Of a DNA stretch of 64,000 bases, positions 15,065 to 56,300 are shown one piece after another. Source of the stretch: Paragorgia papillata (Eukaryota; Cnidaria; Anthozoa; Scleralcyonacea; Coralliidae); assembly GCA_035771165.1 (NCBI GenBank), contig JAWNZC010000285.1, positions 2,036,501 to 2,100,500 on the forward strand, given 5' to 3'. Made by a program: the position numbers and the translations under genes. A model generated the notes under the pieces. That model had not been told where the DNA came from, ran no database searches, and worked only from the letters and a program-made list of their open reading frames with translations. Within the stretch, counting starts at the first letter, position 1. The number at the start of each line of letters is the position of its first letter.

Positions 15065-18000
15065 TTATTTGGACCAAGAGAGAGAAAAAAAAAGTATAAA
15101 ATTACAAGTCCAAATTCGGCGAGCACGAACGACATGACAGGAACAATTCCTGCATATGGAATAGGAACAAGGCGAATCTGGGTCAAAGGTGGTGTTCATG
15201 AGTTCAGTATAAGTTAGGCGTAGATAGGACTTTAACCTAGTTAAAGAAGAAAATACATCAGATGGTGCATGCTTAAGTGAATAGTTCCAGGGATTAACTA
15301 TTCTATTAAAGTAAGATCCTTGAAAGGTACTAGTTTTACATTGTGGGGTTTTAACAAGTGAGGACGAGCCAGATCGGGTGTTACAATTATGTACAGGATT
15401 AAAATAGTCGACGTTTAGATCTATAAGTTTATATTTACATTTGTAGTAAAAGATCAAGTCACGGATTTCACGGTCGTAGGTTAGTGGCACAAGGTTTAAG
15501 ACTTTTAGACGTTCAGAGTACGTCAGTTCTCCTCGTTTCTTCTTCAGAATCCATAACGTAGCTCTCCTTTTAGCACCTTCCACCCTCTTCATCCAGGTAT
15601 TACTTTGAGCCGACCAGATCTCGGAACCATATGATAGTTGGCTTTTGACAAATGGGAGGTATAATGTCCTCCTAACACGAGTATCCGGCAGATAGAAACA
15701 GGTTCGTTTCAAGAGGCAAAGCATCTTGTTACTCTTAGCAATGATGTTCATTATATGGGCGGCCCATTTCAAGTCACTGGAGATTGTAATGCCCAGATCT
15801 AACTCGACATCAGTACAGGAAAGTTCTAAGTCGTACAATGTATAATTATAAATTACTGGACTTGGTCTCCTTGTAATCCTTAGAATCTTACATTTCTCAG
15901 TGTTAAATTTCATTTTGCTTTCGGAGCTCCATAGTTCTAAAGAATATAGATTATCTTGTCGAGTTTGACAGTCGTTCAAGGTTTTTACGTGTCTGTGTAA
16001 CTTTGTGTCGTCGGCATACAGAGCAATGTCAGTGTCAATCGATAGGCTGTCTGAAATATCGTTGACAAAAATAACAGGGCCCAGGATGCTCCCCTGTGGT
16101 ACACCTGAGGTAACGGGTGACCATTCAGACGCCTTCGAAGACTACTCGTTGTCTATTTTCAAAGTAATCTTTAAACCATAATAACAGGGACCCACTTATT
16201 CCATGTAGTTCATGTTTCTTTAGAAGTACCGAGTGGTTAACCGTATCGAAAGCCTTCGAAAAGTCAAGATAAAGTGTGTCAACTTGAGTGTTTACGTCCA
16301 GGTGTTTGCCGATGTTATGAAGGACGCTTAGTAGTGGCGTAACACAAGAACGACTCTTAAGAAAGCCGTGTTGGATTGGGTTAATTACTGGTCGCAAGAA
16401 TGGGTAAATTTGGTTGAATATACATCGTTCCAAAACTTTAGAGATAATCGGTAGTAGTGAGATAGGTCGGTAATTGCGTGCAAGTTCCAGATCACCCTTT
16501 TTGTGAATCGGCGTGACGTTGGCTGTTTTCCATTCACGTGGAACGGTACTAGACGTTAGGGACTTATTCAATAGGATACAAAGACTTGGTGATATTTCGT
16601 CTGCGCACTCCTTAAGTAGGAAAGAAGGTACACCATCAGGACCAGGAGCCTTCTTTGTCTCCAGGCTTTTTAAACACAGGAGTACTTCGTCAACTGAAAT
16701 GCTAATTTCTGGCATTTGCGTGTTTGTTTTTGGCGTGGAATTATTTGAATTGAAATTGTTTGCTTGAGATTTTGGAAGAAAAGTTGACGAGAAATAACTA
16801 TTAAAGATGTCGGCTTTTTCCTTAGATGACTTAGCGGTGAAACCATTATGGAGAACAGTAGAGGGTGAGACCTTCTTGTGCAGCACAGCATTGCTATATG
16901 ACCAAAATATTTTTGGATTATTGGCAAAGGAATCCTGAATTTTTCTCAGATAATCACGATGTTTACCCTTAATTAAGTCCTTTATCTTTATGGTCAGGTC
17001 ACGAAGTACCTTTTTTCTGTGCGGTGTTCTGTTCTTTCGAAAGGAACGGAGTGCAGTATACTTTTTTCTAATAAGATGTTTCACTTCACTGTCAATCCAG
17101 GGTGGGGATGTTTTTTTCGCGCACGAATTTCGTTGGAACAAACTCATCAACCGCTGTTAGAAAAAGGTCCTTCCACTCTTGCCAGCATATATTGATGTTG
17201 CTATTACTTAATGCAGCAAGGTCCAGCGGCGTACGGGATAGACATTCACGAAGTCCTTGGAAGTCTGCGTCATAAACTGTGCGCGAGATCTCTTTTAACT
17301 TTCGAAATCGAAGTATGATGTCAAACTCGATAAGACAGTGATCGGTAGTGAAAACTCCAGAAGGGTGAGTAGTCTCCGTGTTTGAGATTAAATGAGGAGC
17401 GTTTCCAAGAACACAATCCAATTTACTTCCGTGTATGTGAGTCGGGCCGTTGAACGTATGGAACAGAAAAGTGTCGGAGTTAAATCACAAAATAGCTCTT
17501 CCTTGCGGCCGCCGTTGGCAGAAGGGGTCGGGAATTCTCTGGACCAGTTGATATTTGGTAAGTTGAAATCTCCGACGAGTACTAGTTTGCAAGAGTCGTT
17601 CAACATGTTCAAAGAGTTGTGTAACTCACGAAGTGGTGTGATGTCATTATTTGGTGGGCGGTAGAAAACACTCAACATAAATTTCGTTCTGTTTGAAGGG
17701 TAAAGTTCGATCATCAAATTTTCAGCAGTTGGGCCTTCCAAGTTTCTTCTCCTTATCGACTGAAGATTAGATTTAATAGCGATAAGAACACCACCACCAC
17801 GTTTATGAGTTTGGAGATCCCTTCGATGGAGGACATACCCCGGTAAAATTTCGTTGTCAAGGACACATTCGTCAAGCCATGTTTCGCAGACACATACAAT
17901 ATCATAATCCGCTGAGTAAACGAGGCTCTGGAAGATGGCCAACTTACTTGTTTTGGTCCTGGTAGCATCATTACTGTCAACAATGGCTTTAAGACTTCTG

Positions 18001-26676: not shown

Positions 26677-26684
26677 TGACGTCA
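26677..26684 (+). promoter_or_regulatory. CRE-type palindrome TGACGTCA
   Basis: A perfect 8-bp cAMP-response element lies 35 bp upstream of the THAP gene ATG. An identical site is at 53669-53676 without a gene beside it. Function is inferred from the consensus only. Confidence 0.4.
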
Positions 26685-26718
26685 CAGTGAGGACGGAAGC
26701 TCAGTTACTATTGTCAAC

Positions 26719-27457
26719 ATGGCAACTGAGAATCCCGTAGATAATCCAGATGTTTCCAATTCTACTAAGACTAAGCCTCATGGAGGACGATATTGCGTTG
26801 CCGGATGGCGAAATGGAGAAAGCTGTTCAAACGGCCAACATACTAAAGGAATATCAATGCACAGTTTCCCTAACAAGGACAAAATGAGAGAAATACATCA
26901 AATGTGGGTCAAGTTCGTTCGAAGACATCGTGCAAATTTTGTTCCTTCACCACACTCTCAACTCTGCTCGATGCACTTCGAAGATTCAGCTTTTACTATG
27001 TCAGGGCAAATAGCAAAGTCGTTAGGCATAAGGAGAACATTGAATGCAGATGATGTACCGACGGTAGATACCGCGGGGACCCCATATTCTTCAGAAATGT
27101 CAGATCGTGAACGAAGACAGGTAGGTCAGTGTGGTGAATAATCGAATTTAATTATTTTTTATAATAAATCACTCCTTGGTTAATCGAAAGCCCTTTTCTA
27201 CCAGATTCTTCGTCGCAGTTTAGATAGCAAAGTGAAGCCAGAAGCGAGTAGTTCTGTCGACGTCAGCTCGGGAAATGACATTGAAATAATCGAAGGGAGT
27301 CGAACAAGTACTGGTGCAGCCGGAAATCCCTGAAGTAATAACTCTAGAGTCTTGTACTAATAAGTGTCAAACCCTTCAGAAGCAAGTAATCAAGCTGCAA
27401 AAGAAGGTTAGCTGGCTGAGAAAATCCAAGAATTCCCTGATAGAAAGAATGAAACAG
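26719..27457 (+). CDS. THAP-domain protein, two exons, 3' end lost
   Basis: Exon 1 (26719-27120) starts at an ATG and encodes a C2CH THAP zinc domain. It runs from YCVAGWRNG (residue about 26) through the FVRRHRANFVPSPHS core to LCSMHFEDSAF. THAP domains bind DNA in a sequence-specific way and are shared with P-element transposases. A good donor (CAG/GTAGGT) ends exon 1. Exon 2 starts after CTACCAG at 27205 and ends at CAG/GTTAGA (27457). It encodes an acidic linker and a coiled coil (KCQTLQKQVIKLQKKVSWLR). The frames for the linker and the coiled coil differ, so a 1-nt lesion lies near 27300-27315, or a splice was misread. Further exons would fall in or beyond the PLE/retrozyme cluster and were not found. 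Confidence 0.6.
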
Positions 27458-27603
27458 GTTAGAACTGTAAAACACTGTATTATATATATATATATATATA
27501 TAAGTGAGTTATGGTTCACGAAATGTTAGAGAGTGCTCAATACCATATAGATAGAGCAAAATACAAAGTATAAAGTATAGTTTTACCTTAAAGTCTTCGC
27601 TAC

Positions 27604-27633
27604 CAGAGGTTTCACCCTAAACGGGATCATCAG
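27604..27633 (-). ncRNA. hammerhead-like core in inverted PLE1 tail
   Basis: Exact inverted copy of the core at 29355-29384, with the same CTGATGA...GAAA arrangement on the minus strand. Confidence 0.5.
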
Positions 27634-27931
27634 GCGACTGGAAAATATCGGTTAGTGGGCTGCTTAAATGCGTTAGTTGGGGCGTGGGTGTGGGCGTCGA
27701 AACGTCCGGCGCATTCATTTGGAGCGTGGGTGTGGGCGTCGAAACGTTGCGCGCATTCCTTTGATTGTTTAGGTTGTTGATCCGAAATCTATTTTTGTGC
27801 CGACACGTCGAAACTATTTCTGATCTTTTGTTGAGTAAGAGTTGTTTGTCTGCCTTCATGATGAAAAGTTTTTCGTCCAAACATAAATTGCATCTTTTTG
27901 ATCCTCCCGTGTAAGAAATTGAGCCAGAAAT

Positions 27932-29371
27932 TTGGCTATTATTACCGAAAGTGACATTTCAATTATAAAACACGCTAGAAAATCGCTCCTTTTCAACAAC
28001 GAAAAACCGTGGATAAAAAAAGACAGCAACAGTTTATTTGATGTTACCATGGGTAGCTATGACGGCGCTGAAGTATGCGAACTAGTAGGCCTTTTCATTC
28101 TAAACGACCTAGGGAAAAAGTTTGGCAACCAAAATATTGGCCTATATAGAGACGACGGATTGGCAGTACTAAAAAATAAGACCGCACGATTGGCAGACAA
28201 AACAAGAAAAGATCTTCACAAAAGTTTCGAACAGTTTGGCTTAAAAATCACGGCAGAAGCAAATTTAATTTCAGTAAACTTTTTAGACGTCACTTTCGAC
28301 CTAAGCAATGGAAAATACAAACCTTTTCGAAAGCCCAATGACGATCCATTATACATAAACAAGCAATCAAACCACCCACCAAGCATTTTAAGACAGCTAC
28401 CTACATCAATCAACAAGCGCATTTCCCTCCTCTCGTCTGACGAGCGGACATTCCATCAAACCGCACCAATTTACCAAGATGCATTAAGGCGCAGCAATTT
28501 CAACCATGAGCTAAACTACACACAAGAAGCACCACAGCAAACACGCAGAAATAGACGCCGCAATATCATCTGGTTTAACCCTCCATTTAACAGAAATGTC
28601 AAAACAAACATAGGACGCAACTTTCTTAGCCTTATTGACAAGCACTTTCCACCAGGACACAAGCTTCACAAACTTTTTAACAGAAACACAGTCAAGATTA
28701 GCTATAGTTGCATGAACAACGTCAAGTCTATTATCACGAAACATAATTCACGCACAATCAGGAAAAGCAAACCACGAAGCATAGTTACAAGCAGTTGCAA
28801 TTGCAGGATTAAGGACAATTGCCCCCTACGTGGGCAATGCATGACAAACAACATAGTATACAAGGCATCTATTTCCATAAGCAACACGAACATCACCAAG
28901 CAATACATTGGCATGACAGCAAGTACATTTAAAGAGCGATATCGTAACCATACTAAATCTTTCCAGAATAAAAAGTATTCAAATGAGACGGAACTTTCGA
29001 AATACATTTGGAATCTAAAAGAAAAAAACCAAAGTTTCGACATAACCTGGTCTATACTAAAACACTCAATTTCTTACACGGGAGGATCAAAAAGATGCAA
29101 TTTATGTTTGGACGAAAAACTTTTCATCATGAAGGCAGACAAACAACTCTTACTCAACAAAAGATCAGAAATAGTTTCGACGTGTCGGCACAAAAATAGA
29201 TTTCGGATCAACAACCTAAACAATCAAAGGAATGCGCGCAACGTTTCGACGCCCACACCCACGCTCCAAATGAATGCGCCGGACGTTTCGACGCCCACAC
29301 CCACGCCCCAACTAACGCATTTAAGCAGCCCACTAACCGATATTTTCCAGTCGCCTGATGATCCCGTTTAG
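27932..29371 (+). pseudogene. PLE1 reverse transcriptase (partial) with GIY-YIG endonuclease
   Basis: 479 codons are open. Residues 36-80 hold the PLE RT core, FDVTMGSYDGAEVCELVG and the catalytic YRDDGL (residues 72-77). Everything upstream of this in a full PLE (N-terminal RT) is missing and replaced by the inverted tail. A Cys-rich linker (SSCNCRIKDNCPLRGQC) leads into GIY-YIG: NIVYKAS, YIGMT, KERYRNHTKSF and the ETELSKYI Glu. The C-terminal end contains a repeated PTPTLQ / PTPTPQ segment. The ATG at 27932 lies at the truncation edge and is not the native start. The frame is otherwise undamaged. Confidence 0.88.
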
Positions 29372-29384
29372 GGTGAAACCTCTG
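29355..29384 (+). ncRNA. hammerhead-like core in PLE1 3' tail
   Basis: CTGATGA (29355-29361), a CCC/GGG stem with GTTTA loop, then GAAA (29375-29378) form a hammerhead catalytic core. The RT-nuclease stop codon (TAG 29369-29371) lies in the stem-II loop. Hammerhead motifs in PLE tails are established. A full helix I was not evident, so activity is uncertain. Confidence 0.55.
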
Positions 29385-29418
29385 GTAGCGAAGACTTTAA
29401 GGTAAAACTATACTTTAT

Positions 29419-29462
<44 letters not shown>

Positions 29463-29593
29463 TTTGAGCACTCTGGGCCCATGCGCACTTCACGCTATCT
29501 GAATGTACTTCACCGATGCTGTCCCACATGCGGTGGTCACCGGCCATCGCATGTGTATAAGTAATTGATGAAATTCATTCAGATTGTTCCAAG

Positions 29594-29636
29594 CTACACT
29601 GATGAGCTGTTGTACAGCGAAACACCGTGTCTGTAG
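29594..29636 (+). ncRNA. hammerhead ribozyme, unit 1
   Basis: All elements are visible. Helix I is CTACA (29594-29598) with TGTAG (29632-29636). The core is CTGATGA (29599-29605). Helix II is GCTGT/ACAGC with a TGT loop. GAAA follows at 29619-29622. A short helix III is ACA/TGT around a CCG loop. The cleavage triplet GTC ends at 29631. Helix I is the open end, so this is a type-I arrangement. Cleavage would fall after C29631 and release 277-nt monomers from array transcripts. Confidence 0.88.
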
Positions 29637-29870
29637 ATTGAACTATGTACGCTCCTTCACTTCGGTGTTGTTGAGCACTCTGTGAAGTTGCCGTGGGTAC
29701 CTATTAGCAATAATGCAACACTCACTACCCTTGTGGAAGTTTGAGCACTCTGGGCCCATGCGCACTTCACGCTATCTGAATGTACTTCACCGATGCTGTC
29801 CCACATGCGGTGGTCACCGGCCATCGCATGTGTATAAGTAATTGATGAAATTCATTCAGATTGTTCCAAG

Positions 29871-29913
29871 CTACACTGATGAGCTGTTGTACAGCGAAAC
29901 ACCGTGTCTGTAG
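29871..29913 (+). ncRNA. hammerhead ribozyme, unit 2
   Basis: Same 43-nt fold as unit 1, offset by 277 bp. Confidence 0.87.
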
Positions 29914-30147
29914 ATTGAACTATGTACGCTCCTTCACTTCGGTGTTGTTGAGCACTCTGTGAAGTTGCCGTGGGTACCTATTAGCAATAATGCAACGCTC
30001 ACTACCCTTGTGGAAGTTTGAGCACTCTGGGCCCATGCGCACTTCACGCTATCTGAATGTACTTCACCGATGCTGTCCCACATGCGGTGGTCACCGGCCA
30101 TCGCATGTGTATAAGTAATTGATGAAATTCATTCAGATTGTTCCAAG

Positions 30148-30190
30148 CTACACTGATGAGCTGTTGTACAGCGAAACACCGTGTCTGTAG
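30148..30190 (+). ncRNA. hammerhead ribozyme, unit 3
   Basis: Same 43-nt fold, offset by 277 bp from unit 2. Confidence 0.87.
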
Positions 30191-30424
30191 ATTGAACTAT
30201 GTACGCTCCTTCACTTCGGTGTTGTTGAGCACTCTGTGAAGTTGCCGTGGGTACCTATTAGCAATAATGCAACGCTCACTACCCTTGTGGAAGTTTGAGC
30301 ACTCTGGGCCCATGCGCACTTCACGCTATCTGAATGTACTTCACCGATGCTGTCCCACATGCGGTGGTCACCGGCCATCGCATGTGTATAAGTAATTGAT
30401 GAAATTCATTCAGATTGTTCCAAG

Positions 30425-30467
30425 CTACACTGATGAGCTGTTGTACAGCGAAACACCGTGTCTGTAG
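30425..30467 (+). ncRNA. hammerhead ribozyme, unit 4
   Basis: Same 43-nt fold, offset by 277 bp from unit 3. Confidence 0.87.
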
Positions 30468-30701
30468 ATTGAACTATGTACGCTCCTTCACTTCGGTGTT
30501 GTTGAGCACTCTGTGAAGTTGCCGTGGGTACCTATTAGCAATAATGCAACGCTCACTACCCTTGTGGAAGTTTGAGCACTCTGGGCCCATGCGCACTTCA
30601 CGCTATCTGAATGTACTTCACCGATGCTGTCCCACATGCGGTGGTCACCGGCCATCGCATGTGTATAAGTAATTGATGAAATTCATTCAGATTGTTCCAA
30701 G

Positions 30702-30744
30702 CTACACTGATGAGCTGTTGTACAGCGAAACACCGTGTCTGTAG
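30702..30744 (+). ncRNA. hammerhead ribozyme, unit 5
   Basis: Same 43-nt fold, offset by 277 bp from unit 4. Confidence 0.87.
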
Positions 30745-30978
30745 ATTGAACTATGTACGCTCCTTCACTTCGGTGTTGTTGAGCACTCTGTGAAGTTGCC
30801 GTGGGTACCTATTAGCAATAATGCAACGCTCACTACCCTTGTGGAAGTTTGAGCACTCTGGGCCCATGCGCACTTCACGCTATCTGAATGTACTTCACCG
30901 ATGCTGTCCCACATGCGGTGGTCACCGGCCATCGCATGTGTATAAGTAATTGATGAAATTCATTCAGATTGTTCCAAG

Positions 30979-31021
30979 CTACACTGATGAGCTGTTGTAC
31001 AGCGAAACACCGTGTCTGTAG
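30979..31021 (+). ncRNA. hammerhead ribozyme, unit 6 (last)
   Basis: Same 43-nt fold. The array ends a few bases downstream (GATTGAACTAT then TA repeats), so the terminal partial unit still keeps a whole ribozyme. Confidence 0.87.
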
Positions 31022-31096
31022 ATTGAACTATATATATATATATATATATATAAGTTAAGTTAAGTTAATGTAGACTCCTTCAGGCAAATTTTAAAA

Positions 31097-31153
31097 GATT
31101 TTATTCTTAATTACAGACGTTTCGCCGGTTAAGGCTTCATCAGTGAATAAATC
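31097..31153 (-). ncRNA. hammerhead motif in PLE2 3' tail
   Basis: Minus-strand counterpart of 32916-32972 at the native 3' end, with the same core and helix I. Confidence 0.65.
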
Positions 31154-31346
31154 TAAAATAATATACGTCCTCTTTATATACACGGCTAATTAATTAAAAT
31201 ACATGAATAAATTTATTTATTTTTTTATATATGAATACTACATGATATTAAAATATAACAACCAAATTAATGGAAAGGATTAGATTATATGCCGATAATT
31301 TAAAACTTGATAATAAAATTAAATTACTTATGAATAGGACGTAAAA

Positions 31347-32414
31347 TTAAATGCTAAGAATTCTGCCAACACAACCGTTCATAATGTTTTGTGAATGTTT
31401 ACGAATCTCTAACGCTTCAATTACTTTGCGTTCCCTATGATTTCTTACATTGCTATGAATGATTTCCCAACTAATTGGAGATCCAATCTGTGGGTCAATG
31501 TTATGAGATTTTAGATGTGTATACACTGTCTGTTTTTTCATACGTAGGTGCTCTTTCATACGCGAGCCAGTAGATCTCCCGGTTTCACCAATATAAACAG
31601 AATCGCAATGAAAACAAATTATGCGATAAACGGTATGCTTCACTAGGCAACGGTTTGGTTTCAAGGACAATTTGCATGTACAGCAATCTTTAGGACAGTT
31701 TTGTTTCTCTTTTGACGGCACAAAAGTCCTCGATAGTGGTTGTCCATTCATGAAATGAATCCTGACGTTTTTTATGCCCGATCGCCGTACAACAGCCAAA
31801 GCACGGCGTCTAAAATCTTTGTTTATGAATGGTAATTTTAAATAAACGAATTTATCGGGATCTTCTCTGTATGGTTCGGTTCGCAGTGTTTGTTTTATAA
31901 CCGATTTGACAAACTTTTTTGGATATCCATTACGAGTAAATATAGATGTTATTTTACGAAGCGACTTTGTTCTGGCTGAAGGATCGGTTGATCGGGAGAT
32001 GGCTCTTCTCGTTTCTCCTACCAGAATGGACCTTTTAGATGCTATTGAACCATGGCTATCCCACGAGGTGATGCATTGGCTATGCATAGGTTTCACATAC
32101 AATGTCGTCGTAAATTTATTCGTTTCGAGATCAAGTGATACTAGAGTGTCTAAGTACGGTAATTTATTTTCGTTAGGCAATTCAATGGTAAATTTTATTG
32201 CGTCACTCAAATTGTTCGCCGTAGTCAATAGTTTTTCGTCGTTGATTGAATTCGATGTCCATGCGAGGAAAATATCGTCAATGAGTCTTCTCAGAAAAAT
32301 GGTTCCCTTAAATGTATCTACGAGTTGGGTATCAAGGTCGTTCATATAAATGATTGCCAACATCGGGGCAAGGTTATAATGATTGCTGTACATGCAAATT
32401 GTCCTTGAAACCAA
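31347..32414 (-). pseudogene. PLE2 reverse transcriptase (partial) with GIY-YIG endonuclease
   Basis: Residues about 14-50 hold the end of RT (NLAPMLAIIYMND...RRLIDDIFLAW). The box reads LIDD where most RTs have YxDD, so the catalytic motif is altered or divergent. A thumb region (PYLDTLVSLD), a basic linker with a Cys pair (CPKDCCTCKLS) and GIY-YIG follow: HTVYRIICFHC, VYIGETGRSTGSRMKEHL. Residues before the RT core come from the inverted tail junction and are not native. The frame is open to its stop at 31347. Confidence 0.85.
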
Positions 32415-32722
32415 ACCGTTGCCTAGTGAAGCATACCGTTTATCGCATAATTTGTTTTCATTGCGATTCTGTTTATATTGGTGAAACCGGGAGATCTACT
32501 GGCTCGCGTATGAAAGAGCACCTACGTATGAAAAAACAGACAGTGTATACACATCTAAAATCTCATAACATTGACCCACAGATTGGATCTCCAATTAGTT
32601 GGGAAATCATTCATAGCAATGTAAGAAATCATAGGGAACGCAAAGTAATTGAAGCGTTAGAGATTCGTAAACATTCACAAAACATTATGAACGGTTGTGT
32701 TGGCAGAATTCTTAGCATTTAA
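32381..32722 (+). pseudogene. inverted copy of the PLE2 GIY-YIG C-terminus
   Basis: This plus-strand frame repeats the last roughly 110 residues of the minus-strand PLE2 protein. It exists only because the 3' tail is inverted here; it has no RT and no native start. It keeps the GIY-YIG motifs (VYIGETGRSTGSRMKEHL). Confidence 0.85.
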
Positions 32723-32915
32723 TTTTACGTCCTATTCATAAGTAATTTAATTTTATTATCAAGTTTTAAATTATCGGCATATAATCTAATCCTTTCCATT
32801 AATTTGGTTGTTATATTTTAATATCATGTAGTATTCATATATAAAAAAATAAATAAATTTATTCATGTATTTTAATTAATTAGCCGTGTATATAAAGAGG
32901 ACGTATATTATTTTA

Positions 32916-32972
32916 GATTTATTCACTGATGAAGCCTTAACCGGCGAAACGTCTGTAATTAAGAATAAAATC
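32916..32972 (+). ncRNA. hammerhead motif in inverted PLE2 tail
   Basis: CTGATGA (32926-32932), GCC/GGC helix II, GAAA (32946-32949) and GTC (32951-32953). Distal helix I pairs GATTTATTC (32916-32924) with GAATAAAATC (32963-32972) across an internal loop. Helix III would be just AC/GT, as in PLE hammerheads that work as dimers through the ACGT palindrome. Confidence 0.65.
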
Positions 32973-33009
32973 TTTTAAAATTTGCCTGAAGGAGTCTACA
33001 TTAACTTAA

Positions 33010-33095
33010 CTTATATATATATTCCAGGCATGGCAACCTACACTCTTCCTTCATATATATATATATATATACATACATACATACATACATACCTA
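33010..33095. repeat. TA and TACA microsatellites
   Basis: TA runs at 33010-33021 and 33053-33071 are followed by (CATA)n to about 33092. Confidence 0.8.
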
Positions 33096-33096
33096 C

Positions 33097-34255
33097 GGGG
33101 ACCGGGTTGTGGGAACTAGGTTCGTACACCGGGTTATGGGAACTTGTGTGAAAGAAAACAACATTCAGGGTTATGGGAACTTGTGTAAATATCTTTAACT
33201 TACCGACATATGGGAACCTATATAAAGTCCATATTATTTCTTCCATTTACTGGTATGCAAGGGTATATAGACTTACTTTTGGGGCAATTAAAGATTGCGT
33301 TGCTCGTAGCTAAGACTTTTAACTGTGTCAACTTAACATAAAAATTATCAGACATATTTTTTTGTTTTTAATCTGTTATTATCTGGAAGTTAAAAGACCT
33401 CACTACGGAAACAGGCGCTGTCTTTGGATATTTATTTCACGTACAACTTCAAAACCTCCTAATACAAGAATATACATGCACATATGGGAACCTATATAAA
33501 GTTGCGTCCTATTTCTTTGTGGAAAATGTTCTAACTGACTTGGCCCTTTGTTTGTTTTTTCACTCAGGTTCCAATAACGTGGTTTGATGGGGGTTTTTCA
33601 CACAAGTTCCCATAACACTGTTTGTTTTGTTTTTTTCACACAAGTTCCCATAACACTGTTTGCTTGGTTTTTTTCCACACAAGTTCCCATAACACTGTTT
33701 GTTTGGTTTTTTTCACACAAGTTCCCATAACACTGTTTGTTTGGGTTTTTTTCACACAAGTTCCCATAACACTGTTTGTTTGGGTTTTTTTTTACACAAG
33801 TTCCCATAACACTGTTTGTTTCGGATTTTTTCACACAAGTTCCCATAACACTGTTTGTTTGGGTTTTTCACACAAGTTCCCATAACACTGTTTGCTTGTT
33901 TTTTTCCCACACAAGTTCCCATAACACTGTTTGTTGGGGTTTTTTCACACAAGTTCCCATAACACTGTTTGTTTGGGTTTTTTTCACACAAGTTCCCATA
34001 ACACTGTTTGTTTGGTTTTTTTAACACAAGTTCCCATAACACGGTTTGTTTCGGATTTTTCCACACAAGTTCCCATAACACTGTTTGTTTGGGTTTTTCA
34101 CACAAGTTCCCATAACGTGGTTTGATGAGGATTTTTTTTCACACAAGTTCCCATAACGTGGTTTGCTTGGGTTTTTCCACACAAGTTCCCATAACGGGGT
34201 TCGTTTGGGATTTTTTTCACACAAGTTCCATAACGTGGTTTGTCTTTTTCACAGG
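33097..34255. repeat. 38-bp minisatellite, with inverted upstream copies
   Basis: From about 33560 to 34255 some 17 units of 36-42 bp repeat a CACACAAGTTCCCATAACACTG core followed by T-rich filler. At 33097-33195 two to three units lie in the opposite orientation (GGGTTATGGGAACTTGTGTG). Between them, CATATGGGAACCTATATAAAG occurs twice (33207 and 33480). ORFs on both strands here are artefacts of the repeat. Confidence 0.88.
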
Positions 34256-36008: not shown

Positions 36009-36990
36009 AGTAGTAATAGACCCCCATCGAGGGACCAAAGGGATGCCGCCTCATTAAATATTCAACTTATTATTTATTCATTCTCAGGCTCCTTTGAGAC
36101 CTCCTAACCCTAATCTCATTATTTATGCATACGTCATTATTTCTCAGACTCCTGAAGTTAAAAAGAGTTGCCTTGAATGGTAGCGAATCGTTATTGTAAA
36201 CTTAGAAGAACATTATTCGATAGCATCGTTGACCAAGCACTTTGAAAAATTACAGAGCTTGGTTAAATAATTCGTCGCTATGATTTAGTATGTTATAAGA
36301 TTCTCGCACGTGCAGAACACAAAAGGGAAAAGTCATTAAAGCTACTAATGGCTAAAACATAGCCAGATTTGCATATAAGTAGAATATTTAATTCATTTTA
36401 GGGGATGTCATGAGTTGTGTGTGGATAATAAGGGGTATTAATGTGTGGGCATGTTCAGGCCAAAAGATGATTAGCGGGGGCGTTACCATGGAGAATGTAC
36501 AGCCTCGCGTCGCCTCATAAGACAGAATTCAAAGTACTCAGTTTAAAATATTTATTTAGGCTTTGGTTTAAACTTACACATATCAAAACAAATTACCGTT
36601 ACATATAAATAGTTCACACCGAGCATCTAGTAAGGTCTGCTTCTTAGATTATATTTAGGTGTTTTTATTTTAAAAGTAGAATGATAATCTTTCTTGTCTT
36701 CTGATGATAATTGGGACACGTCTTCTTTTGTCATGGGTAAATATGTTGATCTAGTCATCAATAGATGATGTTCATACTCTTCTCTATCATCCGGAGTCAT
36801 CTTTGCCAAGTCTTTCTCTGTCGGGTCACCCAAACTTTCCCAGTTATGAAAGAAATTATGTTTAAGCGTCGGTTGTTCAACGGTAGGAGGCGGTGTTAGG
36901 AAATAGGTTTTAGGTGTAGCAGGGAAACCCCACGGAATATCGTCAGTTTCTTGCTTTATCTCCGGTGTCAAGTTTGGTGTAGGCTGAGTT
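36009..36990. repeat. left terminal inverted repeat of the Maverick
   Basis: 982 bp, complementary to 40152-41005 plus 41732-41891. It includes the last roughly 120 codons of the ATPase gene in antisense orientation. Confidence 0.85.
36627..36990 (-). pseudogene. antisense-arm copy of ATPase C-terminus
   Basis: The minus strand repeats the ATPase tail from NLTPEIKQETDD to NLRSRPY with few changes (DD-I-P versus DD-L-P) and one 9-bp gap. Upstream residues in this frame are unrelated, so it is a TIR-borne fragment, not a gene. Confidence 0.8.
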
Positions 36991-37008
36991 TCAAGATTAT
37001 CTATTTTT

Positions 37009-37676
37009 TTATTTCGGTTCAAAATTATTTTCATTAACTCCATCGGTAATATAAGCCTTGGGACATGCAGTACAGAAACCAATTGAATGTGAAAAAGATA
37101 AGGGAGATCCTAAGTTACATAATTTACATTGATTGTTATCCTGATAGAAATCTTTCCATGAACATTTAGGACACTGAAGTAAATATACAACATGTACAAT
37201 ACTTTGACAGTGTTCACATTCTCCAGTAAGTTCTTCATTTCCCTCCGAGTCCTCTCCACTCCAATGCTCCGCGTCCGACTCTTCTTGTTTTTCGGAGTCA
37301 GTTTCTTCGTCTTCGTCCTCGCTTTCTTCGTCTTCGCTTTCGGATTCCGGCCCTTGATGTTCATGACGTGCCAGCATGGTCAAAACTTGAACATTTTCAA
37401 TGAGACTTTTATCAATTTTCAAATTTGCTAGTCTTTTAATAAAAATATCTAAACCAAGGGGCTCGGGAATCTTGGCATCGTATTCTGTAAGACAATATTC
37501 TATCAAATCTATAGAATATTATTATATACTATTTCCCCTCTTGAATTCCACGTGAGAAAACTATGAGATATCAGCAAACTGTTTAGCAGAGAAGACACTT
37601 TCTCTTCATCGATTTCGTAGTGTAAATGTGATATTATTTGTTGGACGCGATAATTAGCGAGACTTGTTTCTTCCAT
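37009..37676 (-). pseudogene. acidic Cys-rich Maverick protein, frameshifted
   Basis: A short ORF from ATG 37676 to the stop at 37509 (55 aa) is followed, in another frame, by 37009-37506. The two read naturally as one protein with a lesion near 37507. The second part has an acidic Glu/Asp/Ser stretch (about residues 52-92). After it come two Cys-rich motifs (GECEHCQS...LQCPKCSW and NQCKLCNL...FCTACPK) resembling zinc ribbons. I do not recognise the family. Its place next to the ATPase suggests a Maverick accessory protein. Confidence 0.5.
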
Positions 37677-39194: not shown

Positions 39195-40532
39195 ATGTCG
39201 TACATCTGTCGCACTTGCGGAAAAACGTTTTCGACAAGAGGCAATCTTCAACGTCATATTAAAAATTTCTATCAGGAAAGTAATACCGTGCATGTTTCCC
39301 CTGTTATCAATGGATCTACAGTCATGCAGCATCCATTTACATGCATTGTTGCAGGGTGTACTCAGAGCGGCAAAACCGTATAGGTGAAGACACTTCTGGA
39401 AAATGCCAAAACTACGATTAATCCTCCTCCCGAACGTATCATTTGGTGCTATGGACAATGGCAGCCCATGTACCTTGAGATGATCAAAACAATATCAGGC
39501 ATCGAATTCTACGACGGTATACCTTCCGACATTGACTCGGATGATTTTCTTGAAGTCTCTCAACGTAACCTGATCGTCCTCGATGATCTTATGGCTCAAT
39601 CAGGGGGAGATAAACGTATTGCTAGTCTATTTACTAAAGGTAGTCATCATCGGAATTTGTCTATCATCTATATTGTTCAAAATATTTTCCATCAAGGCAA
39701 AGAAACCAGAAACATTAGCCTCAACGCACACTATATCTTACTCTTCAAGTCTCCGAGGGATAAACAGCAAATTTCTGTCTTGGCTCGACAGGTGAACCCT
39801 GGTCATGTTCAGGAATTTATGAAGAGTTACGAGAAAGCAAGAAGCCGCCCTCATGGTTATCTTATGCTAGATCTAAAGCCTACAACGGATGACGATCATC
39901 GTCTCAAGACCAATGTTCTACCTGGAGAAAGTAACTCCACCCTGCAGCAGCAACTTGGTAGTTTCATACAAAAGCAATCTTATCAGCAACCTCCGATCAT
40001 TAACGCCATGTACAATACAGCACAAAAAATGCAAGATATTGTACAAGCGCCACAGTTAACAACAGAAGAAAAGAGCATACTCTACTCCAATCAGCTCGGA
40101 CGTTTTCTAACGTTTCAAAATCAACTGCAGAATCAGCTTCAACCTCTAACTAATCCTCAAACTCAGCCTCGGAAAAATACACCAAACTTGACACCGGAGA
40201 TAAAGCAAGAAACTGACGATCTTCCGTGGGGTTTCCCTGCTACACCTAAAACCTATTTCCTAACACCGCCTCCTACCGTTGAACAACCGACGCTTAAACA
40301 TAATTTCTTTCATAACTGGGAAAGTTTGGGCGACCCGACAGAGAAAGACTTGGCAAAGATGACTCCGGATGATAGAGAAGAGTATGAACATCATCTATTG
40401 ATGACTAGATCAACATATTTACCCATGACAAAAGAAGACGTGTCCCAATTATCATCAGAAGACAAGAAAGATTATCATTCTACTTTTAAAATAAAAACAC
40501 CTAAATATAATCTAAGAAGCAGACCTTACTAG
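39195..40532 (+). pseudogene. A32-like packaging ATPase with N-terminal C2H2 finger, one nonsense codon
   Basis: Frame 3 runs from ATG 39195 to TAG 40532 with a single internal TAG at 39381-39383, directly after the P-loop (GCTQSGKT). Residues 1-30 carry a C2H2-type finger (YICRTCGKTFSTRGNLQRH). The Walker B is NLIVLDDLM. LFTKGSHHRNLSIIYIVQN and ISLNAHYILLFKSPRDKQQ are family-typical of FtsK/HerA-type ATPases of Maverick/Polinton elements, which pump DNA into capsids. The C-terminal 120 residues are acidic and proline-rich and lie in the right TIR. The gene is convergent with the two minus-strand Maverick genes. Confidence 0.82.
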
Positions 40533-41897: not shown

Positions 41898-42835
41898 CGT
41901 GCTACGTTCTCTGGTCACGTCAGACAGCGACGATAGTTTGCACGAAGTACATTGTTTTCTTCAAGATTTAAGTCTAGAATGTACTTCTGGATGTTATTGT
42001 GAATTTTTCTATAAAAATCACCTGCGGAACGGATCGAAATTAAAATTCGAAACGCTGCTAGACTGACAAACGCTTAACGAACGTTGTCAACTGCCTGGAA
42101 GTTTTCCACTTCAGATTAACTTGATAAACAAAGCCGACGAACAGGAAAATTTCTCGGCGCTAAATTTCTATGACATAATGGTAAGATCTATATTTAGAAC
42201 AGTCTGCCCTTTGAGATCAATGATTAACTTTCTCATGTAGCGTTTGTTTTATACTTTTATTTGCATAATTCAACACCGGAAAATCCTGTCCTTGTGTTAC
42301 AATAACATTGTCGAGTTGAGAATCAGACGTCTGGCAGCGATTTAAATGTATCTCGCCATATTGACATCATTATCTGGCAGAGGCTCATTTTCTTTCCCTC
42401 TTCCAATCATTCCCCACGCGCGTCTTCCCTCTCGCCCGCACGCCTTCCCCTCCGAGCCTCTGCGGAGGAGACAGTCTTGCCGCGGTGTCCAGTGTTGGAG
42501 ACGAACAGCTCTTTAATAAAACATTTGATATAAACCTCATGTATGCTTTCATATATATATATTAAACATTTATTACTTTTGAATTTTCTTATTCATTAAG
42601 AAAGTTCAAAACAAAGAAATGTTTGATCAATATCTGTAAATCGCATACAGATTCGTCCTGATTTACATAAACTTTTTCCTCAATTTACTTAGCTATATGA
42701 AATCATTCCAGCTTCAGAAATAGTTTGAAAACATGGCTATTTAGATGCGTCCATTTGATAAGTAAGATAAAGCATTCGCAGCTGATCTGTATGTGATTTA
42801 CTACGGTTCGCTTGCAGCTCACTGTACCCTTGTGA
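41898..42835. other. non-coding; GC-rich hairpin at 42378-42468
   Basis: CAGAGGCTC (42378-42386) pairs with GAGCCTCTG (42454-42462), and CCTCCG/CGGAGG form a tight hairpin at 42449-42468. The block is markedly GC-rich for this window and may be a MITE. No gene. Confidence 0.45.
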
Positions 42836-42955
42836 CAGTTCGAGCACTCTGGCCGTATACCACCTCATGCTCTCTAGATGTGCGCACTATAGATTGTTCC
42901 AAGCTACACTGAGCTGTAGTACAGCGAAACACGTGTCTGGAGATTGAACTATATA
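42836..42955 (+). repeat. solitary decayed retrozyme unit
   Basis: Resembles the 277-bp unit: TTCGAGCACTCTGG, then a gap of about 90 bp, then GATTGTTCCAAGCTACACTG...GATTGAACTAT. The hammerhead core has lost ATG (CTGAGCTG instead of CTGATGAGCTG) and helix I is weakened, so it should be inactive. Confidence 0.75.
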
Positions 42956-43276
42956 CACGAGAGCGGAATTGTCTCAAGGAAAAGAAAACGTGAAATGCAT
43001 GGATCTGAAGATAATATATATTTGTAATATATATATTTAATGTAATATTAATAACCTTTTTAAAATCGCCAATCTACTTGACCTAATCTTTCAAACAATC
43101 AAACTGTCACATGGCCCGCATACTAAAATACTAAAAGGGGAGATGGCCCCTAAATTGATCATCTGGTTTCTGTACCATGTGGTATTTTTTCGTGGAATGT
43201 AGAACCTGTGCTAGAGCCCGCTTTATAAATACTTATTAAATTCTGAAGATCCTTGCAATACCTTTTGAGATATACT

Positions 43277-55240: not shown

Positions 55241-56300
55241 ACACAGTAAAGCTTTAACTGGCCACCAAAAGATCTATCTTTGCAACCTGCTGCCGAAAGA
55301 CAGCACAAGCATTGCCACCGCTACTGTGCAGTTTACAGTTAATTTTAAATTTTATAGTTACTTGATTTTATTAAATGGTGTAATATACTACACAGTAAAG
55401 CTTTAACTGGCTACCAAAAGACACAATATCTTTGCAACCTACTGCCGAAAGACGATTCATCTTGACAGCACAAGAGTTGCCACCACTACTGTGCAGTTTA
55501 CAGTTAATTTTAAATATAATATTATACAGTTGCAATTTAATGTAATTATTAAATGGTGTATTACACTACACAGTAAAGCTTTAACTGGCTACCAAAAGAC
55601 ACAATATCTTTGCAACCTGCTGCCGAAAGACGATTCATCTTGACAGCACAAGAGTTGCCACCACTACTGTGCAGTTTACAGTTAATTTTAAATATAATAT
55701 TATACAGTTGCAATTTAATGTAATTATTAAATGGTGTATTACACTACACAGTAAAGCTTTAACTGGCTACCAAAAGACACAATATCTTTGCAACCTGCTG
55801 CCGAAAGACGATTCATCTTGACAGCACAAGAGTTGCCACCACTACTGTGCAGTTTACAGTTAATTTTAAATATAATATTATACAGTTGCAATTTAATGTA
55901 ATTATTAAATGGTGTATTACACTACACAGTAAAGCTTTAACTGGCTACCAAAAGACACAATATCTTTGCAACCTGCTGCCGAAAGACGATTCATCTTGAC
56001 AGCACAAGAGTTGCCACCACTACTGTGCAGTTTACAGTTAATTTTAAATATAATATTATACAGTTATTTAATGTAATTATTAAATGGTGTATTACACTAC
56101 ACAGTAAAGCTTTAACTGGCTACCAAAAGACACAATATCTTTGCAACCTGCTGCCGAAAGATGATTCATCTTGACAGCACAAGAGTTGCCACCACTACTG
56201 TGCAGTTTACAGTTAATTAATATTTATTTTTAAATACAATGTATTATACATGTTATTTGATTTTATTAAATGGTGTACTATACTATGCAGTAAAGCTTTA
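55241..56300 (+). repeat. 178-bp satellite, about six units
   Basis: Unit starts (ACACAGTAAAGC) are at 55241, 55390, 55568, 55746, 55924 and 56099, with a variant at 56285. The core period is 178 bp; the first unit is 149 and one is 175. Middle units are nearly identical, edge units diverged. Each unit contains complementary ACAGTAAA and TTTACAGT motifs. No ribozyme core was found. Confidence 0.9.

Follow-up and report, generated by a model that had tools for sequence, protein, structure and literature searches.

The closest described relatives of the element reported here are the metazoan non-LTR retrozymes (Cervera & de la Pena 2020), for which units of 150–450 bp have been published and which, according to the excerpted text of that study (PMC7229834), combine a type I hammerhead and the lack of a long ORF with dispersed copies and co-existing Penelope-like elements (PLEs). 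What moves animal retrozymes has been left open, with suspicion falling on PLEs (PMC7229834, PMC7761336; both in extract), which the former names only as a strong candidate mobiliser. For PLEs themselves, extracts from work on the anole element Poseidon (Anolis; PMC11167929) describe a protein that begins reverse transcription inside the RNA, at a point that is not homologous to the cut DNA, with AT-rich targets, genomic copies that end at internal starts and a "tail", which is the stretch between two starts. The RNA required by the anole protein includes this tail region, and earlier work cited there found the tail to be needed for DNA recognition and cutting by the endonuclease of Drosophila virilis; in vitro, mainly unprocessed RNA was used, with the hammerhead cutting only when protein was present (PMC11167929).

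We analysed a window of 64,000 nucleotides from the cnidarian Paragorgia papillata (contig JAWNZC010000285.1, positions 2,036,501 to 2,100,500), in which the following features are central:

27504–29422, + strand: PLE1, 3′ part of a Penelope-like element, with an inverted 3′ copy
27530–27540, − strand: the 11-mer TTGAGCACTCT in the PLE1 tail, between the short and long PLE1 3′ ends
27923–29371, + strand: PLE1 open frame, 482 aa, with the end of a putative reverse transcriptase (YRDDG) and a GIY-YIG-like endonuclease
29350–29396, + strand: hammerhead-like motif within PLE1, minimal in form (CTGATGA...GAAA) and with helix III nearly absent, read in the sequence
29423–29460: (TA)19 tract, lying between PLE1 and the array and flanking both (TRF and sequence)
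29461–31028, + strand: retrozyme array of 5.7 units (277 bp each), which stops 12 nt past the sixth cleavage site (15 with the shared TAT)
29586–29643, + strand: first hammerhead domain, with helix Ib GTTC/GAAC and predicted cleavage after 29631; five more follow at steps of +277
29671–29681, + strand: first copy of TTGAGCACTCT in the unit (also 29948, 30225, 30502, 30779)
29741–29751, + strand: second copy of TTGAGCACTCT in the unit (also 29464, 30018, 30295, 30572, 30849)
31029–31051: TA-repeat tract, right flank of the array, read in the sequence
31052–33010, − strand: PLE2, a second Penelope-like element, an inverted-repeat copy with TA repeats at both 3′ ends
42810–42956, + strand: old single copy of the retrozyme family, core damaged (GAT lost), 3′ end GATTGAACT followed by ATATA

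The preliminary description of this DNA had reported a tandem array of an ORF-less 277-bp unit with six hammerheads, period and ribozyme spacing both being exactly 277 bp, and had proposed a metazoan retrozyme. TRF indeed returned a period of 277 (5.7 copies, 99% matches, 29460–31031), and the 33-nt hammerhead core (CTGATGA, helix II, GAAA, helix III, GTC) occurs in six identical copies at 29599, 29876, 30153, 30430, 30707 and 30984, spaced by exactly 277 and with predicted cleavage after 29631, 29908, 30185, 30462, 30739 and 31016. The last unit is incomplete, so that six ribozymes lie in 5.7 units. The units are arranged head-to-tail, with a single variable site among them, and the longest stop-to-stop frame of the circular unit is one of 64 aa on the minus strand. 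Together with dispersed copies and co-existing PLEs (see below), the tandem unit of 277 bp, its type I hammerhead and the lack of a long ORF bear out the assignment to the metazoan retrozymes.

The ribozyme is of type I, since both of its ends leave via helix I, which consists of CTACA/TGTAG and, beyond an internal loop, GTTC/GAAC; helix II is GCTGT/ACAGC and helix III comprises three pairs closed by three bases. The Rfam covariance search that had been suggested as a check failed to support this: the hammerhead models gave no match in the window at their cut-off (16.1 bits against a cut-off of 48.5 for the type III model), and no family reached its cut-off on four of the loci studied for the retrozyme. 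Identification of the hammerhead therefore rests upon core and helices. In an alignment of seven distinct copies, the drawn pairing holds in 99.2% of cells, compared to 12–54% with one strand slid, and helix I contains one double change from U-A to A-U, carried by a divergent insertion on contigs 239 and 240; as 73 of 500 shuffles pair equally well, covariation by itself is weak. The circular unit folds at −93.8 kcal/mol versus −71.1 (sd 5.0) for 100 shuffles, with the hammerhead helices costing some 7 kcal/mol when forced (−87.1) and 12 kcal/mol when the loops are also kept open (−82.0), in a program that ignores tertiary contacts. The lone hammerhead domain is no more stable than shuffles, and its lowest-energy fold differs from the active one. 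The pattern CTGATGA-N12-GAAA was discarded as a probe for this ribozyme, which it misses (13 nt separate the two blocks), finding other, PLE-type motifs instead. A second kind of ribozyme repeat is present in the same genome, as tandem arrays of 118–122 bp with minimal PLE-type hammerheads (CTGATGAAGG...GAAA; loci L009, about 1132–1636, and L010, about 725–983).

The suggestion that the genomic setting might be new proved fruitful. The array is bounded by TA repeats on both sides and sits between two PLE insertions, PLE1 to the left and PLE2 to the right, with TA repeats separating them; as PLE1, array and PLE2 are all abutted by TA tracts, three elements appear to have entered a single TA tract, a setting that points to the mobilising machinery. 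No repeats besides the units were found at the ends of the arrays that were read. Elsewhere in the window we observed a frame with a THAP domain upstream of this setting (26680–27141), a tandem repeat of period 39 or 77 (ACACAAGTTCCCATAACACTG) beyond PLE2 (33547–34234, related pieces at 33133–33226) and a 178-bp unit in 4.8 copies, 98% alike (55368–56218), for which Rfam gave no match (the same search also missed the retrozyme). Two frames in opposite orientation, 36627–37109 and 39384–40532, have the same long C-terminus, and the latter resembles by eye the packaging-type ATPases of large DNA transposons.

PLE1, the outer ends of which abut TA repeats at 27481–27503 and 29423–29460, includes an inverted copy (27545–27923 versus 29065–29443, 98% identical). 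Pfam detected neither reverse transcriptase nor GIY-YIG in the PLE1 frame and its relatives, and a PDB sequence search with the frame gave no match. Of 7,996 candidates from the protein collection, 4,612 are relatives of PLE1. Comparison of a profile of PLE1 relatives with one of PLE2 relatives, which carry RVT_1 and GIY-YIG domains, gave a probability of 98.8% (E 5e-17) over both domains, which indicates that PLE1 has a putative reverse transcriptase with a GIY-YIG endonuclease. Among 5,216 candidate copies of PLE1 in the genome, the 88 that were scored are 97–100% identical, and 76 of these are free of internal stops, the longest open frames reaching about 760 aa: judged by its copies, the family is young, with many uninterrupted frames. 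Twenty copies were fetched from the 40 fully identical ones listed, and 17 end in ACTCACTT followed by a TA-type tract, with the other three reading on as tandem copies; four further copies have a shorter end, CTTTGTA, followed by TA repeats. Having two 3′ end points at TA repeats, with the stretch between them as the tail, PLE1 resembles the anole PLE, and it displays both inverted copies and an optional tail, as PLEs do. The inverted repeat of PLE2 (31044–31692 versus 32377–33022) is 99.4% identical; its GIY-YIG domain is found in Pfam below the cut-off of the model (E 5e-4), and seven of the eight rows of its relatives that name a species name anthozoans, as would be expected for a cnidarian host.

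The copy number, another check that had been proposed, was determined in a genome of 618 Mb. Exact matches to the segment GTCTGTAGATTGAAC, which spans the cleavage site, number 6,244 compared to one for its reversed control, and the hammerhead repeat is therefore not a product of chance. The segment continues with TATGTA, and thus into the next unit, in 2,684 cases (control 0) and with TATATATA, an end against TA repeats, in 2,879 (control 0); these two classes account for 89% of occurrences, the other 681 (11%) fitting neither exact pattern, and there are about 2.2 segments per exact TA end. These counts may include allelic copies, as some contigs have common flanks (289/86, 428/280, 239/240). 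A search with the whole unit, in which 39 out of 69 candidates were scored, gave at least 78 matches, whilst 200 kb fetched around the window contained three further copies that are absent from the 78. Another array in the genome runs to 7.8 turns. Retrozyme arrays form a dense cluster on contig 1 (about 417000–431800), mostly on one strand. At two loci (L059, L056) the retrozyme 5′ end is fused directly to PLE1 or PLE2 sequence with no TA between, as expected from template switching or nested insertion, and tail-to-tail pairs surround a short TA-rich stretch at L104 (C3:467200–469300) and at the joined loci L061/L101 and L063/L102, as though a single target had been used on each of its strands.

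Most retrozyme insertions share one 3′ end: GAAC-T-A-T followed by TA repeats. This end falls 12–15 nt past the cleavage site and is ambiguous to within those bases, because the unit itself reads TAT there. Among the 78 unit matches we made out 39 separate places by hand; 31 end at this point in the fetched DNA and one more does so according to the TA-end listing, three have a different end (one is joined to an inverted copy, and the others break off at an earlier unit position), two extend beyond the DNA that was fetched and two are the divergent insertion of contigs 239/240. The common end is also found in the three copies near the window and in the decayed copy within it. A 15-mer allowed up to two substitutions matched the fetched DNA 134 times (68 internal, 61 followed by TATATA, 5 other; two more were cut off by the end of the fetch), with the 61 TATATA ends giving no independent estimate as at least 20 had been selected by that end. 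TA repeats of at least six units occur only once per 6.9 kb over 200 kb of the window's contig, which makes chance a very poor explanation for the TA flank at the 3′ ends. An apparent further 3′ end at about unit position 49 was dropped, since longer fetches show arrays continuing past it.

The 5′ ends, by comparison, vary: according to BLAST, 20 copies from the TA-end list begin at 18 different unit positions (88, 240, 18, 144, 255, 15, 113, 219, 58 and 253 for copies 1–10; 16, 15, 252, 137, 247, 252, 262, 70, 213 and 32 for copies 11–20). Seventeen of these copies are shorter than one unit, and TA repeats are also present on the 5′ side in 14 but not in the other six. Starts cluster at 252–255 and at 14–18, with four BLAST-sampled copies in each, and with 17 and 11 respectively of 63 insertions tabulated by hand (a table in which two pairs have common flanks and may be duplicates, and which omits contigs 351, 6, 23, 467, 239 and 240, the array at 3.7 kb on contig 11 and the decayed window copy). 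These clusters are the two edges of the second TTGAGCACTCT element, as if the enzyme were halted by this element or by a protein bound there; starts at 252–255 might also be promoted by microhomology to TA repeats.

A fixed internal 3′ end, an AT-rich target and a variable 5′ end are thus all present, as in Penelope-type target priming, and we read the combination as the signature of target-primed reverse transcription from a fixed internal start. We propose, with a probability of roughly 0.7, that the 277-bp unit represents a metazoan non-LTR retrozyme family that is copied into the genome by a Penelope-like protein of the PLE1 type. As in the published class, multimeric transcripts would self-cleave at the hammerheads and ligate to 277-nt circles; a PLE protein would nick a TA-repeat tract, and reverse transcription would begin at the fixed internal site GAACTAT, 12–15 nt downstream of the cleavage site, and proceed over the joined site, sometimes for more than one turn, to give arrays. 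Recognition would probably depend on the TTGAGCACTCT region, which follows soon after the start and is common to the PLE1 tail. Self-cleavage, circles, protein binding and PLE1 as the actual agent are what we infer within this scheme, and another PLE may be the agent, as PLE2 is also flanked by TA repeats.

Copies cross the joined site even though the start is placed beyond the point of cleavage, which requires a template that is circular or uncleaved; a cleaved linear monomer could give just 12–15 bases, invisible to the searches used. Mean internal identity in the 13 arrays with at least two whole units ranges from 87.6 to 100%, exceeding the between-array mean of 96.45% (153 first-unit pairs) in 11 and reaching at least 99.2% in six. 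Such likeness fits repeated copying of one circle, although multimeric RNA or later homogenisation are also possible. It is thus conceivable, if rather less probable, that an older array supplies the template, in the form of an uncleaved multimeric transcript, and that the ribozyme plays little part in movement, a reading that can be reconciled with mobilisation by a PLE. Circles are not required, since the anole PLE inserts unprocessed RNA without need of hammerhead cleavage, hammerhead mutants being equally good in vitro (extracts of PMC11167929), and array C446 mixes units of two variants; against this stand the six arrays with at least 99.2% internal identity, as predicted for one-circle copying (and producible by later homogenisation), and the abundance of circles of such units in other animals (PMC7229834, in extract).

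The link to PLE1 in particular comes from TTGAGCACTCT, which lies 24–27 nt past the end point in its first retrozyme copy and 20–23 nt past the short end of PLE1. The 11-mer occurs 12,046 times in the genome versus 168 for the reversed sequence, and exact PLE1 tails number 1,937 (control 0). Within 200 kb around the window, all six places are PLE1 or retrozyme; among the first 100 places listed, all of them on contig 1, 79 are next to retrozymes, 12 belong to PLE1 and nine fit neither exact pattern (390184, 426445, 428853, 428930, 429449, 431748, 435466, 469669 and 2526104). When PLE1 ends were shuffled, 26 of 3,000 shared at least 11 bases with the retrozyme (p about 0.009). Similarity beyond TTGAGCACTCT was not upheld, as gapped alignment of retrozyme and PLE1 end (score 14, 41/500 shuffles) is not significant, whilst the PLE2 end also scores 14 (10/500), via the hammerhead itself. 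With a modest match and no significant wider alignment, the argument draws jointly on where TTGAGCACTCT lies, its duplication, its near-exclusivity and its conservation.

Conservation was assessed in one divergent insertion, present in two contigs with a common flank (239/240), which is about 82% identical and joined tail to tail with an inverted copy. Identity is 94% and 92% in the motif regions and 91% in the ribozyme, compared to 73–74% in the long hairpin and 81% in the rest (Fisher p 0.0008), and TTGAGCACTCT is unchanged.

It is against these data that mobilisation by another PLE family, be it PLE2 or one not seen, has to be weighed, with the 11-mer then being coincidental or a common site for a promoter or host factor. 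The PLE2 insertion, too, is bordered by TA repeats at each of its ends, PLE-type cores are abundant (CTGATGA-N12-GAAA: 4,809 versus 132 reversed) and the 11-mer match taken alone has the p value given above; we nevertheless consider this improbable, as TTGAGCACTCT where examined is mostly retrozyme or PLE1, recurs at a similar distance past the start, is present twice per unit, withstood divergence and is lacking from the PLE2 copy in the window, from which a PLE2 tail may be absent. Returning to mobilisation by a PLE1-type protein, a more specific version is about as likely to be right as wrong: the retrozyme would be a parasite of this one PLE family, bearing two copies of its tail recognition element, with a start 12–15 nt past cleavage and arrays made by rolling-circle copying. 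With the start so placed, full copies would come only from RNA that is either uncleaved or ligated into circles.

Mobilisation by a LINE, for which LINE-like reverse transcriptase frames recognised by eye at 15065–17156 of the window could be cited, is very improbable: no poly-A follows the retrozyme 3′ ends that were read, and 3′ ends, targets and tail motif match PLEs. Spread as a satellite through unequal crossing-over, with an incidental ribozyme, would suit tandem arrays and the contig 1 cluster but is scarcely credible given 2,879 exact ends at one common point against TA and the prevalence, among the copies sampled, of lengths below one unit.

Whilst the retrozyme class is already known, what is new is genome-wide evidence on its movement: taken together, the fixed end point, the use of TA repeats as target and the motif in common with a young PLE make PLE-mediated mobilisation the best explanation. 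Among the open-licence papers searched, titles and abstract beginnings gave no earlier report of a common retrozyme 3′ end or PLE motif. Start site, target and candidate recognition motif are all defined in the genome, and with thousands of junctions and recent copies of each partner present, the question of the retrozyme mobiliser is now directly testable. If the proposal is true, animal hammerhead retrozymes are SINE-like partners of PLEs, and the position of the start, immediately beyond the cleavage point, explains why there is a ribozyme at all.

Comparison with known systems reveals both likenesses and differences. With the retrozymes of Acropora millepora, Mytilus and axolotl the Paragorgia papillata element shares a small non-coding tandem unit and a type I hammerhead with short helix III, and with the published metazoan retrozymes generally it shares thousands of copies and PLEs co-resident in the genome; it differs in its unit of 277 bp with a sequence of its own, whilst a common 3′ end, a TA-repeat target and a PLE-shared motif go unreported in the extracts of PMC7229834. 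According to partial texts, Poseidon of Anolis likewise has 3′ ends downstream of a hammerhead, AT-rich targets and an optional tail (PMC11167929), and Penelope of Adineta vaga has inverted copies (PMC3846280). The retrozyme differs from tailed PLEs in having no protein and a fuller hammerhead, and its 3′ end lies 12–15 nt past the cleavage site compared to about 45 or 104 nt in PLE1 (counted on the sequence). In SINE–LINE pairs the two partners share a 3′ end, the non-autonomous RNA bearing the recognition element of the autonomous one; here, a PLE would take the place of the LINE, and the RNA would be a unit processed by a ribozyme.
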